The position numbers and the translations under genes are program-made. A stretch of 64,000 nucleotides of DNA, taken from positions 124,001 through 188,000 of the forward strand of contig NZ_NOXU01000026.1 in the NCBI RefSeq assembly GCF_002251795.1, read 5' to 3'. Positions 46,930 through 50,832 of this stretch are shown here, piece after piece (positions within the stretch are counted from its first letter, which is position 1; each line of letters begins with the position of its first letter). The notes beneath the pieces are model-generated. The model was not told the origin of the DNA and did not search any database. It saw only the letters and a list, made by a program, of their open reading frames with translations. Origin of the DNA: Niveispirillum lacus. Lineage in GTDB: Bacteria; Pseudomonadota; Alphaproteobacteria; Azospirillales; Azospirillaceae.

Positions 46930-47082
46930 GCTGGTCATCCGCCGCTATTGACCCTGTAACCGCCCCGACATCCGGTCAGAGGCCCATGAACGCCACTATA
47001 ACCCGGCGCGGCGCGACAGACATCTTTCTTCCGTATGGGTTTTTCCGGCTTGACCGGTTGGAAACCGGATGTTCATGCAAAG

Positions 47083-47118
47083 CCAGCAGCCGGCGGAGAC
47101 CGATCCGCCGGCTGCTGG
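47083..47118 (-). terminator. Terminator of the XRE/membrane-protein operon
   Basis: CCAGCAGCCGGCGGA and TCCGCCGGCTGCTGG form a perfect 15-bp stem with a 6-base loop, directly after the XRE stop codon and followed on the minus strand by CTTT. The T-run is short. Confidence 0.8.
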
Positions 47119-47120
47119 TT

Positions 47121-47312
47121 TCACTCATCCTGGAAGATTGCCTCGATCGGCTGTACGAACAGGCGGGCGATGGTAAAGGCCAGCGGCAGGCTGGGGTCAT
47201 ACCGACCATTCTCCAGCGCGTTCACCGTCTGACGGGAGACCGACAGCTTGTCGGCCAGATCGCCCTGCGACCAGCCCCGTTCGGCGCGCAGTTCCTTCAA
47301 TCGGTTTTTCAT
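47121..47312 (-). CDS. Small XRE-family transcriptional regulator
   Basis: A 63-aa protein that is a bare helix-turn-helix: RLKELRAERGWSQGDLADKL, then SVSRQTVNALENGRYDPSLP, ending in IFQDE. It resembles the short YozG-type regulators often encoded with a membrane protein. It is translated 13 bases after the membrane-protein gene in one operon. Three palindromes upstream of the operon (47718-47790) are good candidates for its binding sites, giving autoregulation. Confidence 0.88.
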   Translation of the reverse strand: MKNRLKELRAERGWSQGDLADKLSVSRQTVNALENGRYDPSLPLAFTIARLFVQPIEAIFQDE

Positions 47313-47325
47313 AGGATCGCCTCCG

Positions 47326-47697
47326 TCAGCGGTAGTGGAACCGCGAGACCAGACCGCCGATCACCCACAGGGCCGACATCACCGGCCACACGTAAAACAT
47401 TGAGAGTTTCGGCAGGCCGGCGATTTCCAGGAAGCCGTAACTCAGCGAAAGCAGAGCTGTGCCTGCAAATGAAAAAGCCAGCACTTCCAACTGGGTCTTG
47501 CGCTGAAATTCGTCCAGGCGGCGGATCTGGCGCAGGATGACCCAGGCGATCATGAAAATCGGCACCATGGGCAACAGCAAGAGCGGGACCTTCATCTCCT
47601 CCCCGACCCAGCCGTTACGCAGAGCGAAAAAGATCAGTGGCAGGATAGCGCCATAGAAAAGCAGGCCGGCCCCCAGTTCCATCGCATAACGACGCAT
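47326..47697 (-). CDS. Four-helix membrane protein, partner of the XRE regulator
   Basis: A 123-aa protein with four membrane helices (about residues 8-28, 37-57, 75-97 and 100-117) and a short cytoplasmic loop RQIRRLDEFQRKTQLE. Genes of this type are commonly paired with short XRE regulators; function unknown. The ATG at 47697 is chosen because GGAGG lies 8 bases upstream; the ATGs at 47703 and 47715 would place it 2 bases away or inside the coding region. Confidence 0.78.
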   Translation of the reverse strand: MRRYAMELGAGLLFYGAILPLIFFALRNGWVGEEMKVPLLLLPMVPIFMIAWVILRQIRRLDEFQRKTQLEVLAFSFAGTALLSLSYGFLEIAGLPKLSMFYVWPVMSALWVIGGLVSRFHYR

Positions 47698-47704
47698 GAT
47701 CATG

Positions 47705-47746
47705 TCCTCCTTCATATGTAAAGCGTGCTTTCCATATGAAGGAGGA
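47705..47746 (-). promoter_or_regulatory. 42-base near-palindrome over the XRE-operon Shine-Dalgarno site
   Basis: TCCTCCTTCATATG and CATATGAAGGAGGA are perfect 14-base inverted repeats with a 14-base spacer that is itself operator site 1. The right arm on the minus strand holds the AAGGAGG ribosome site of the membrane-protein gene. In a transcript running through from the upstream penicillin acylase gene, both arms would be present and could hide this site; a transcript from the local promoter would lack the left arm. Confidence 0.7.
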
Positions 47747-47790
47747 TGACGGGTGTGTCAAGTGTACTTTACATGGAAAGTGTACTTTCC
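47718..47790 (-). promoter_or_regulatory. Three operator-like palindromes and promoter of the XRE operon
   Basis: GTAAAGCGTGCTTTCC (47718-47733), GTCAAGTGTACTTTAC (47757-47772) and GGAAAGTGTACTTTCC (47775-47790) share AAG(C/T)GT(G/A)CTTT(A/C)C. A minus-strand promoter lies among them: TTGACA at 47756-47761 overlaps the second site, and CATATG at 47733-47738 abuts the first. Binding would block the -35 and the start point, which suits repression by the encoded regulator. Confidence 0.75.
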
Positions 47791-47794
47791 ATCC

Positions 47795-50188
47795 TTATTC
47801 TGGTTCCAGGGTCAAGGTCCAGCGGGTGGGGCCGGGCAGGAAGGGGGTTGGCTTGCCATCCGCCCAGTCCTGGTGACCCTGCAGATAATAAGGCGACAGC
47901 GGATGGCCGCTCTGGCTACCGGGCATGTGGAAATAGGCTTCGGCCTCATGGCCCGGTGCGACGGCGAATCGCTGGCTGGCGCCAAAACCCGGTCCTTGGA
48001 CGCGCGGCATCATGCTGTCGCCCGGCAAGCCCTGTTCGGGGGGATCGGTCAGCCAGCCCACCGGTGGCAGAATACGCGCCAGGGGATGGCGTATCTCCGC
48101 GACATTGCGCGCGCCCCAGGTGAAGGATTGTATGCCACCGGCTTTATCCACCTGGTCTGCCACTTCCGTCAGCGCCGCACTGACCAGCGCATCCCAATCC
48201 TTGTATCCAGGTGGCACCAGCGCTGGCGGGCGTTCGGTCATCAGGCGGCGCAGCGGTCCTTCCTGTTGGGCGGCACTGCGGTTGCGTGGCATCGGTCCGT
48301 CCAGGCCCAGATAGCCGCTGTACAGTTTTTGCGCCAGGGCTGTGCGGAAGGCCCGGACAAGGCGATAGCCGACACTGTCGGTGGCGGCGCGCGCGCCCCA
48401 GTCACGAACGGGTTGGGCCAGGGCTGCCAGCCGTGCATCTGCCGGGCGCGCCATCAGGGCGGCCAGCATCTGTTCCTGCCAGAAACCCAGTACCAGGGCA
48501 CGGTCATCTAACTGGATAGCCAGCATTTCGGCCGGCCCAAACCGGTCACGGGAGAACAGCCCATCACGGATCTGCGCTTGGCGCCCGCCCATATCATAGC
48601 CGCCATCGCCCAGTTTGGCATAGGCGTCACCCCCGACGATACGGGCATTGGCGGTCCATATGCGGTGATGGTCGGGGTTGCGGATCACTGGGATCTGATC
48701 GGGCGGCAGCATGCCGTTCCAGCCCCGTGTACCGTCGGCCCAACTGCTGGGGATGCTGCCATCATGGCCGAACCGTGCCGGCACTGCTCCGATGATGGTC
48801 CAGGCCACATTCCCGGCAGTGTCGCCCACCACCAGATTTTGCTGCGGCTGACGGGCCCGATGCGCGATGGCGATTGCCGCATCGACGCTTTCCGCCCGTT
48901 CCAGGCCGAGAAGACCGGTCAGATTTATCGCGTCTGGTTCATGCCCCGTCCAGCGTACAGCCAGCTTGCTCCCGTCGGCCCGGGTTTCGACCACCGGTCC
49001 CCAGATGCTTTCCTCTACTACCATGTCCTGGCAGGCCACCCAGGCGGGGCAGAGCCGTTCCCGCACACGTGTCAGTTCTTTAGGCCCCTCAGGTGTATGA
49101 TAACGACCGGGCGTCCCCTCCGCTGGCTCCAGCACAATGACATCGGCGGTATCGATGTAGGAATTAGTGTAGCCCCAGGCTACTTTACCATTGCTGCCGG
49201 CGACCAGGGCTGGTGTGCCCGGCAGTGTGACGCCGGTGGCATCCATGGCGTCAGGCCCGCCACGGACCAGCAGACGCGCACGATACCAGGTCCCGGGTAC
49301 GCTGATCCCCAGATGCATGTCGTCGGCTACCAGGGCCGCTCCGTTTGCCGTCAGGGCACCGCCCACAGCCCAGGCGTTGCTGCCGATGGTCGGGCCGGGA
49401 TCGGCGTTGATCATCGCAGTCTTGTTTCCCAGCGCGGGCAAGGCAGAAGGTAAGGCCGGTTCAGGCAGGGGCAGGCCGTCGATGGGCGCATCCAGGCTTG
49501 TTGCACGCGGATACAGGAAATCCGTCATTTCAGGCCCAAGCCGGGCCAAAGTCTGACCCCGAATCCGGTCGGTCAGGGCGTCTTCGTCCTGCAGATCCAG
49601 ATACATGGCATAGGCAGCCAGAATTGTATCCTGGGTTGTCCAGGGTTGGGGGGTGGCCAGCAACAGCGCATACTCAAACGGGCGCCCATTGATCGCGGCC
49701 AGGCCTTGGTTCACGCCATCGGCGTAGGCCTCCAGCATGGATTTCTGGTCCGCGGGCAGGCCGGCAATTACCTGTTCCGCTCGGTGGCGCAACCGGTGAA
49801 GGCGCCGTGACCGGTCAATCTCCAATACCGGGCCGACCGGACCCAGCAGGCCAGACAGTTCCCCTGCCGCCGACCGGCGGATCAAGTCCATCTGGAAATA
49901 GCGCTCCTGCGCATGCAGAAAGCCGAGAGCGCGGGCCAGATCAAGACGCGAATCGCCTGTGAGCGTCGGAATGCCCTGGGCGTCACGCGACACGGCGACA
50001 GGGGCGGTCAGGCCGTTCAAGGCGAGTGATCCGTCCAGCGCGGGCTTTGACACAAACAGATTGACCGTGAAGGCACCGGCCGCGACCAGGACCAGTCCCG
50101 CCACCCCCGCCGCCCCATATCTCAACGCCCGGCCCCAGCCGAAGCCCTGCCGCCGTCCATGTCGCCTGCGCACCAACTGACCCCCCAT
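47795..50188 (-). CDS. Penicillin acylase family N-terminal-nucleophile hydrolase
   Basis: A 797-aa precursor anchored by an N-terminal membrane helix (about residues 20-42). The family is cleaved autocatalytically into alpha and beta chains; the beta chain would begin at the serine of GSNAWAVGG (Ser about 270). LGFLHAQERYFQMDLIRR upstream and WGYTNSYIDTADV downstream are conserved. Substrates include acyl-homoserine lactones and penicillins; the real one here is unknown. The ATG at 50188 is chosen since the frame further upstream runs through tRNA-Ala. The gene ends 5 bases before the operator array of the XRE operon. Confidence 0.87.
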   Translation of the reverse strand: MGGQLVRRRHGRRQGFGWGRALRYGAAGVAGLVLVAAGAFTVNLFVSKPALDGSLALNGLTAPVAVSRDAQGIPTLTGDSRLDLARALGFLHAQERYFQMDLIRRSAAGELSGLLGPVGPVLEIDRSRRLHRLRHRAEQVIAGLPADQKSMLEAYADGVNQGLAAINGRPFEYALLLATPQPWTTQDTILAAYAMYLDLQDEDALTDRIRGQTLARLGPEMTDFLYPRATSLDAPIDGLPLPEPALPSALPALGNKTAMINADPGPTIGSNAWAVGGALTANGAALVADDMHLGISVPGTWYRARLLVRGGPDAMDATGVTLPGTPALVAGSNGKVAWGYTNSYIDTADVIVLEPAEGTPGRYHTPEGPKELTRVRERLCPAWVACQDMVVEESIWGPVVETRADGSKLAVRWTGHEPDAINLTGLLGLERAESVDAAIAIAHRARQPQQNLVVGDTAGNVAWTIIGAVPARFGHDGSIPSSWADGTRGWNGMLPPDQIPVIRNPDHHRIWTANARIVGGDAYAKLGDGGYDMGGRQAQIRDGLFSRDRFGPAEMLAIQLDDRALVLGFWQEQMLAALMARPADARLAALAQPVRDWGARAATDSVGYRLVRAFRTALAQKLYSGYLGLDGPMPRNRSAAQQEGPLRRLMTERPPALVPPGYKDWDALVSAALTEVADQVDKAGGIQSFTWGARNVAEIRHPLARILPPVGWLTDPPEQGLPGDSMMPRVQGPGFGASQRFAVAPGHEAEAYFHMPGSQSGHPLSPYYLQGHQDWADGKPTPFLPGPTRWTLTLEPE

Positions 50189-50267
50189 CCGTCCGAATTC
50201 GGCGGCACAGTTTCCCTTTTGGGAAGGGGAGCGGCAAGCAGGATTGGCAGCAAACAGGCCGGAAAAC

Positions 50268-50297
50268 ACAAAAGGCCCCGCTGTTGCCAGCGGAGCC
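50268..50297 (-). terminator. Terminator of tRNA-Ala
   Basis: On the minus strand GGCTCCGCTG and CAGCGGGGCC pair around GCAA and are followed by TTTTGTG, 8 bases after the tRNA CCA end. Confidence 0.75.
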
Positions 50298-50304
50298 TTC
50301 GTTT

Positions 50305-50380
<76 letters not shown>

Positions 50381-50423
50381 GAAACTGTGGCGCGATGTCT
50401 GGGTGACCATCGCGGTGGGCGGC

Positions 50424-50452
50424 TTTATGGACAAAAGCGGCGACGGATGCAA
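50424..50452 (-). promoter_or_regulatory. Promoter candidate of tRNA-Ala
   Basis: TTGCAT, a 17-base spacer and CATAAA lie about 44 bases before the tRNA 5' end, leaving a short leader for RNase P to remove. Confidence 0.5.
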
Positions 50453-50496
50453 GCCCCTTGATCAGCCCCCCAGGCAAGGCAGGCATGTGACCGGCT

Positions 50497-50832
50497 TTAC
50501 CCCTCCCCACCAACCGGGCCCCAGAAAAGGGCCCAGCAGGTAAAATCAGCACTGAAGACCGTGAAATGATGCTCCACCCCCGCCTCCACGAAGATCAGGT
50601 CGCCAGGGCCGAAATCTACCACCCTGCCAGCTTTCTCGAAACGGCCGGTACCGGTCAGCACCACGTAAAGCTCGTCTTGTTGATGCGGCCCTTGTTCGTC
50701 CCGGTCGTTTGGGGCGTATAGGCCTGCCTTCATGCTGCCGTGGCGGATCACATAGTGGAAGCGCTGTATGCCTGCGCGGTCGCCGATGGCCGCCAAGGCG
50801 GCGGCGGGTGGGAACAGGAAGGGCTGGGTCAT
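50497..50832 (-). CDS. Cupin-domain protein
   Basis: A 111-aa single-domain cupin. The two motifs are visible: motif 1 around GPHQQDELYVVLTGTGRF (metal-ligand His and Glu near residues 52-57) and motif 2 around DFGPGDLIFVEAGVEHHF. The ATG at 50832 follows GGGGAGG. Function unknown; such proteins can be isomerases, dioxygenases or ligand-binding proteins. Confidence 0.82.
   Translation of the reverse strand: MTQPFLFPPAAALAAIGDRAGIQRFHYVIRHGSMKAGLYAPNDRDEQGPHQQDELYVVLTGTGRFEKAGRVVDFGPGDLIFVEAGVEHHFTVFSADFTCWALFWGPVGGEG

Follow-up and report, generated by a model that had tools for sequence, protein, structure and literature searches.

The genome of Niveispirillum lacus (GCF_002251795.1) carries, within a 64 kb stretch of contig NZ_NOXU01000026.1 (124,001-188,000; hereafter the window, in whose coordinates all positions are given), a penicillin amidase (acylase) gene followed by a two-gene operon. 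Every feature of the locus, from the acylase stop codon through the operators and an inverted repeat to the operon itself, lies on the minus strand. The acylase ORF (47795-50452; PF01804, E 6e-135), the presumed source of readthrough RNA, ends with a TAA at 47797-47795, and a spacing of 4 nt separates this codon from the 16-bp core of operator 1, the palindrome ATGGAAAGTACACTTTCCAT (47773-47792) directly 3' of the stop. Operator 2 (ATGTAAAGTACACTTGACAC, 47755-47774) contains or overlaps the -35 hexamer TTGACA (47761-47756), which stands at the same place in relatives. It is followed by the left arm of the repeat (TCCTCCTTCATATG, 47733-47746), the anti-Shine-Dalgarno strand, which includes the presumed -10 element CATATG (47738-47733), by operator 3 (ATGGAAAGCACGCTTTACAT, 47716-47735), which forms the loop of the repeat and near whose centre the transcript would be expected to start (about 47726), and by the right arm (CATATGAAGGAGGA, 47705-47718), recognised from the perfect repeat and from predicted folding, which holds the Shine-Dalgarno (SD) sequence AAGGAGGA at 47712-47705.

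The first gene of the operon encodes a membrane protein of 123 amino acids (47326-47697), identified from hydropathy and a 19-sequence alignment, with the start taken as the second ATG (47697), 8 nt past GGAGG. The second, xre, encodes an XRE/Cro-type DNA-binding protein of 63 amino acids, the presumed autorepressor (47121-47312; PF01381, E 3.5e-15). Just 3' of xre lies a GC-rich inverted repeat (47083-47118, with 14-nt arms at 47083 and 47105), a possible end of the acylase-operon transcript that lacks a T tract and so is not an established terminator. Similar repeats can be seen by eye after xre at L002 and L005. In genome G006 a hairpin that looks like the one behind the acylase of G002 and G009 (see below), uncalled by the terminator scan, lies past xre, together with a gene related to the downstream gene of G002 and G009 by short blastn blocks (44-195 nt, 68-78%). 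A terminator shared by the relatives after xre was considered from the hairpins seen by eye and set aside, as none was called there in the operon direction at L004 or L006.

A sequence-only reading of this DNA had placed three palindromes with 16-bp cores at an inferred promoter, along with a perfect 14-nt inverted repeat over the SD. The coordinates of the palindromes hold, and the arms (47746-47733 and 47718-47705) were found as claimed; the description of the repeat as separate from the operators was mistaken, operator 3 being its loop. The arms and operator 3 constitute a single palindrome with 20-nt arms that match at 95%, with one mismatch. The window has five places (near 799, 23581, 40945, 47083 and 47705) where perfect arms of 13 nt or more are separated by no more than 40 nt, against a mean of 0.05 matches per window in 20 first-order Markov simulations. 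The leader of a readthrough RNA is predicted to fold better than its shuffled versions (z = -5.6; 0 of 200 shuffles as good), and the hairpin alone reaches -24.9 kcal/mol (z = -8.6), whereas an RNA starting at 47732 folds no better than shuffles (z = +1.3). Operator 1, in the predicted fold, already forms a hairpin at the 3' end of the acylase message. The repeat was also considered as an intrinsic terminator and rejected, as no T tract follows the right arm (CATGATCATG, minus strand) and the terminator scan did not call it. A search of 47000-50600 against Rfam at gathering thresholds returned a tRNA as the sole match, with no known RNA family at the repeat.

The XRE protein has a Cro/CI-type domain (PF01381), and its closest matches in the PDB by phmmer are 9k3w, named as PbsX family (E 1.3e-23), and CylR2, 1utx (E 2.9e-11), the latter match spanning 59 residues. 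The partner encoded beside the regulator is, on hydropathy alone, a small multi-spanning membrane protein, for which neither Pfam nor NCBIfam gave a match at E 0.001. Of the genomes searched, 8 of 11 in the genus, 24 of 82 in the family and at least 14 of 385 drawn from the class encode a homologue of this membrane protein, the last count being a minimum from a search that scored up to 11 candidates per genome; further homologues are present in records named as Pseudomonas, Achromobacter, Pseudoduganella, Verrucomicrobia and Roseiflexaceae.

Six genomes of the genus (G000, G003, G001, G006, G007 and G010; loci L001-L006) have the operon directly behind the acylase stop codon, and in all six the third operator from the gene touches or overlaps that codon. 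Within this acylase-linked group the membrane-protein gene exists in two forms about 50-54% identical, one at L001 and L002 (93% identical to each other) and the other at L003-L006. The flanking genes have a history unlike that of the membrane gene, with the acylase C-terminus 93% identical between L002 and L005 and 89% between L001 and L002, and the XRE protein 98% and 90% identical in the same comparisons; the block of low identity runs roughly from the start codon to the stop codon of the membrane gene, resembling a swapped allele.

At the other end of the acylase gene, the start of the 885-amino-acid ORF overlaps a tRNA-Ala gene (50305-50380), and an in-frame ATG is present at 50188. Given this overlap, the real start of the acylase is probably near 50188. 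The matches to acylase relatives in G007 and G010 (L074 and L073 between them) each contain one in-frame stop, which possibly arises only from the match running upstream of the real start. The tRNA-Ala gene lies upstream of the acylase in four of the six linked loci; as a strong source of readthrough it was discounted, since it has its own terminator-like hairpin at 50300-50271.

Operators of this kind are not confined to the window. Sites with at least 11 of 16 letters matching ATGTAAAGNNNNCTTTACAT were sought over the 190 nt that precede the gene at 50 homologous loci, and at least one was found at 39 loci and at least two at 38, where shuffled stretches would be expected to give 1.34 and 0.06, respectively; equal stretches within genes, taken as a control, gave no locus with one or more sites and none with two or more. 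The expectation of the sequence-only reading that the palindromes would be conserved beside homologous operons is thus borne out. Eleven of the 50 loci had no site at the chosen score, and L011 (one site) and L051 (no parsed start) were left unfolded, giving 37 scored loci with at least two sites and a parsed start. In 31 of these 37, TTGACA falls in the last-but-one site, and in 33 a distance of 34-41 nt separates the final two sites. The last site begins at the -10 element. On this comparison of sequences, the two-operator promoter, with sites over the -35 and over -10/+1, is ancient, and the wide conservation of operators beside the XRE gene supports an autorepressed promoter that would start in the last site.

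For the window, the 17-nt spacing and the arrangement in relatives predict a promoter with the -10 element CATATG and a start near 47726, in the loop. Such a start would agree with the earlier expectation of one not upstream of 47746, the promoter being assigned from conservation; a simple sigma-70 scan called this promoter in none of the six acylase-linked loci. The array of operators 1 and 2 was found in 6 of the 82 genomes of the order that were searched, these being the six acylase-linked genomes, and three sites occur among other loci only at L014 and L051. In its own genome the exact pattern AAAGNNNNCTTTNCAT has five matches: four are operators 1 and 3, each read on either strand, and the fifth lies elsewhere. 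With just this one exact match beyond the two operators, a reading of the XRE protein as governing a regulon was rejected. In another genus of the same family, seven loci with a homologous operon (L008, L009, L010, L012, L036, L039 and L049) have no consensus match at the chosen score; a diverged site with ACTTGTC (GCTTGTC in L008) is visible upstream by eye, which suggests that operator specificity has changed in these loci.

In all six linked loci the sequence 5' of operator 3 pairs with the SD region, and strong arms covering the SD were found in these six genomes, all of one genus. The stem was followed through a MAFFT alignment of the six loci (alignment A2, 18 pairs), in which L005 was counted as aligned, so that its bulged pairs were scored as broken. 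Twelve of the 18 pairs are invariant, five have changed on both sides and one departs by unpaired cells alone, and no pair shows a change confined to one side; of 104 cells, 91.3% are paired. Co-varying stem bases, which the earlier reading proposed to look for, are therefore present in the related genomes. The covariation score exceeds that of all 500 shuffles and of every slid version of the alignment, while the number of further pair types is matched in 63 of 500 shuffles and is not beyond chance. For the outer 11 pairs, which lie outside the operator, four are double-changed (10 of 500 shuffles as high), the covariation score is again above 500 of 500 shuffles and the further pair types are reached by 73 of 500. 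For instance, three compensatory pair changes separate the stems of L001 and L002, two loci whose membrane proteins share 93% identity. The stem is not flawless: in L002 the outermost pair does not form, there are two mismatches in L004 and a bulge in L005, and a G/A mismatch just inside the arms (A2 columns 31 and 44) persists in four of the six loci. In place of a standard SD, L003 has just a run of G, and this run is paired. No G-U intermediates were seen in the stem pairs of the six loci. As the loci come from one genus, the evolutionary events they record are few and related.

The consequence of this pairing for the start region was modelled as the opening cost, in kcal/mol, of the segment from -15 to +3, with the local RNA taken from the centre of the operator and the L003 start codon corrected by hand for the folding and promoter analyses. 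For readthrough and local RNA, respectively, the predicted costs are 17.9 and 5.5 (L001), 20.4 and 8.2 (L002), 23.8 and 7.6 (L003), 14.2 and 3.8 (L004), 10.0 and 3.4 (L005), and 25.4 and 3.9 (L006). The proposal that the SD would be closed in readthrough RNA and open in local RNA is thus matched by the model in all six loci (10.0-25.4 versus 3.4-8.2 kcal/mol). When the 22 nt before operator 3 were shuffled, the observed cost was reached in 0 of 100 cases at five loci and 4 of 100 at L005. The mean cost after the shuffle fell to 4.8-6.2 in four of the linked loci; it was still 12.6 in L002 and 16.8 in L003, where closure is therefore partly not due to the arm. A gap between readthrough and local RNA of at least 10 kcal/mol is present in five of six linked loci versus none of the 31 other scored loci, and a gap of at least 6 kcal/mol in six of six versus three of 31 (L020, L029 and L048).

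When the 5' end is moved along the window locus, the predicted cost is 10.8 kcal/mol with the end at 47743 and drops to 3.6 once it lies at 47732. In all six loci, RNAs that begin at or after the fourth base of operator 3 cost at most 9.1 (L002 being highest), and for 5' ends at or before 8 nt ahead of the operator start the cost is at least 10 in five loci and mostly 7-8, up to 11, in L005. Five of the six linked loci have a lower mean unpaired probability from -15 to -5 in readthrough RNA than in local RNA, L002 showing the opposite (0.28 readthrough versus 0.19 local). This measure also drops in many unlinked loci (at L018, for example, 0.09 readthrough versus 0.56 local), and thus fails to separate the two groups.

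Among the unlinked loci, few shuffles of the arm reach the observed cost at L020 (5 of 100) and L028 (3 of 100). By an ORF heuristic rather than annotation, 13 of the 31 have a same-strand ORF of at least 90 amino acids that ends at most 35 nt from the first site. L020, L029 and L048 (gaps of 7-10 kcal/mol) all fall within these 13, with none among the other 18, a grouping whose exact chance, calculated post hoc and by hand, is about 0.06. This is a hint that the risk of readthrough and closure of the SD go together, and in the model these three are possible cases of weaker or independent versions of the arrangement. A close upstream gene on the same strand does not suffice, as 10 of the 13 are without a gap of at least 6 kcal/mol. 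L007 has a gap of 4.7 kcal/mol, and in genomes G004 and G008 the operon (L007 and L011) is located away from the acylase.

What lies behind the acylase differs within the genus. In none of the six linked loci was a terminator-like site called in the operon direction between the acylase and the operators. Four genomes of the genus have a full-length acylase match without an adjoining operon. In two of them, G002 and G009, both without an operon match, a terminator-like hairpin in the acylase direction was called some 20-30 nt past the acylase stop, though in L078 the count by itself does not exceed shuffles; in the other two, G004 and G008, other sequence stands behind the acylase, the terminator scan having covered G002 and G009. 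With no terminator-like site called before the operon and a hairpin in relatives that lack it, transcripts of the acylase gene would be expected to continue into the operon. The operon may have been gained in the six linked genomes or lost in G002 and G009.

From the observed anatomy, conservation, covariation, predicted folding and genome context, the region probably controls a membrane-protein/XRE operon that represses itself and whose SD is closed to readthrough from the acylase ahead of it, and it is from these features that we infer the start site, repressor binding, the readthrough itself and its effect on translation. The XRE protein would bind the palindromes over the -35 and over -10/+1 of its own promoter, as their conservation suggests, with the third palindrome doubling as the loop of the long inverted repeat. 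The left arm, which holds the -10 element, would stay untranscribed from the local promoter, and the right arm holds the SD. Local mRNA would therefore start in the loop, without the left arm, and be translatable, whereas RNA arriving from the acylase gene would carry both arms and fold the SD into the stem. In consequence, the membrane protein, and through it the operon, would not be made from acylase transcripts. The inverted repeat would be a lineage-specific addition to that ancient promoter with its two operators, retained where acylase and operon share a transcript.

The complementarity of the arms could in principle reflect a process acting on the DNA. Correction of the palindrome around operator 3 by template switching during replication would maintain the repeat, with pairing of the SD a functionless by-product. 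Through such switching, one arm would be rewritten from the other in a single step, and this fits the changed pairs, which are all double and without one-sided or G-U intermediates; the arm with the SD is constrained anyway, and the opposite arm would mirror it. However, a copying tract running through the centre would erase the G/A mismatch that lies inside the arms in four of six loci, the bulge in L005 has been retained, and the process should act elsewhere too, yet none of the 31 other scored loci has a gap of 10 kcal/mol or more. We regard this explanation as unlikely, while granting it some weight.

Two further explanations seem to us quite improbable, and to a similar degree. One is that the hairpin serves the acylase mRNA, either by stabilising its 3' end or as a site for RNase III or for processing that splits off the operon. 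In each of the six linked loci it does lie just past the acylase stop codon, and exonucleases could be halted by a perfect stem of 14 bp; yet a structure that stabilises a 3' end would have no need of an SD, and the right arm is the SD. A hairpin at the 3' end of the acylase message is already provided, in the predicted fold, by operator 1, and the missing T tract means that the structure is no intrinsic terminator. The other is insulation at the level of DNA, with repressor on operators 1-3 forming a roadblock to RNA polymerase coming from the acylase and the arms merely lengthening the operator. The additional operator that immediately follows the acylase stop in all six linked loci, making an arrangement of three sites found elsewhere only at L014 and L051, is in keeping with such a role, but the arm sequences vary between loci while their complementarity stays, unlike a protein-binding site. 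A roadblock can coexist with closure of the SD by readthrough RNA, the reading preferred here.

Protection of a start site from incoming transcripts has precedents. In IS10 and IS50, transposase expression is protected by an SD that is paired only in transcripts entering from outside; those structures lie at the ends of mobile elements, unlike the palindrome described here, which is an operator-promoter. For gene e (lysozyme) and I-TevI of phage T4, long transcripts initiated upstream pair the SD and/or the start codon, and for gene e this is an experimentally shown, 100-fold switch in phage timing (PMC3014915). The likeness is that the SD would be paired in upstream-initiated RNA here too, by prediction only; the difference from gene e is the setting, a bacterial chromosome and a presumed autorepressor operon in which an operator forms the loop. 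In Enterococcus faecalis, CylR1 and CylR2, a small membrane protein and a 66-amino-acid XRE-type regulator, are encoded together, and CylR2 controls a divergent toxin operon (PMC3709268). A membrane-protein gene likewise stands next to a CylR2-type XRE gene in N. lacus. Here only one other match to the exact operator pattern was found in the genome, and the membrane protein is without a family match. By analogy, the logic of silencing readthrough would be that known from T4 gene e and I-TevI, in the different setting of a CylR-like autorepressor operon with its operator as the loop. No title or abstract opening found in the open-licence literature describes the operon or the palindrome.

Tentatively, and as a reading somewhat less likely than not, we suggest a compound palindrome with three jobs, an operator in its loop, a -10 element in its left arm and, through the SD in its right arm, a sensor of transcript origin. 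Such a palindrome would have evolved on the ancient two-operator promoter because the transcript is shared with the acylase, and the circuit would be insulated both at transcription, by operator 1, possibly acting as a roadblock, and at translation. If true, this would be a clear chromosomal case in which translation of an mRNA is set by the promoter from which it originates, built into the operator of a repressor, and it would show a way for two genes under tight self-regulation to persist downstream of another gene with no terminator in between. Operons that regulate themselves and share a transcript with their upstream neighbour are the places to look for compound palindromes of this kind, with L020, L029 and L048 as the first candidates.
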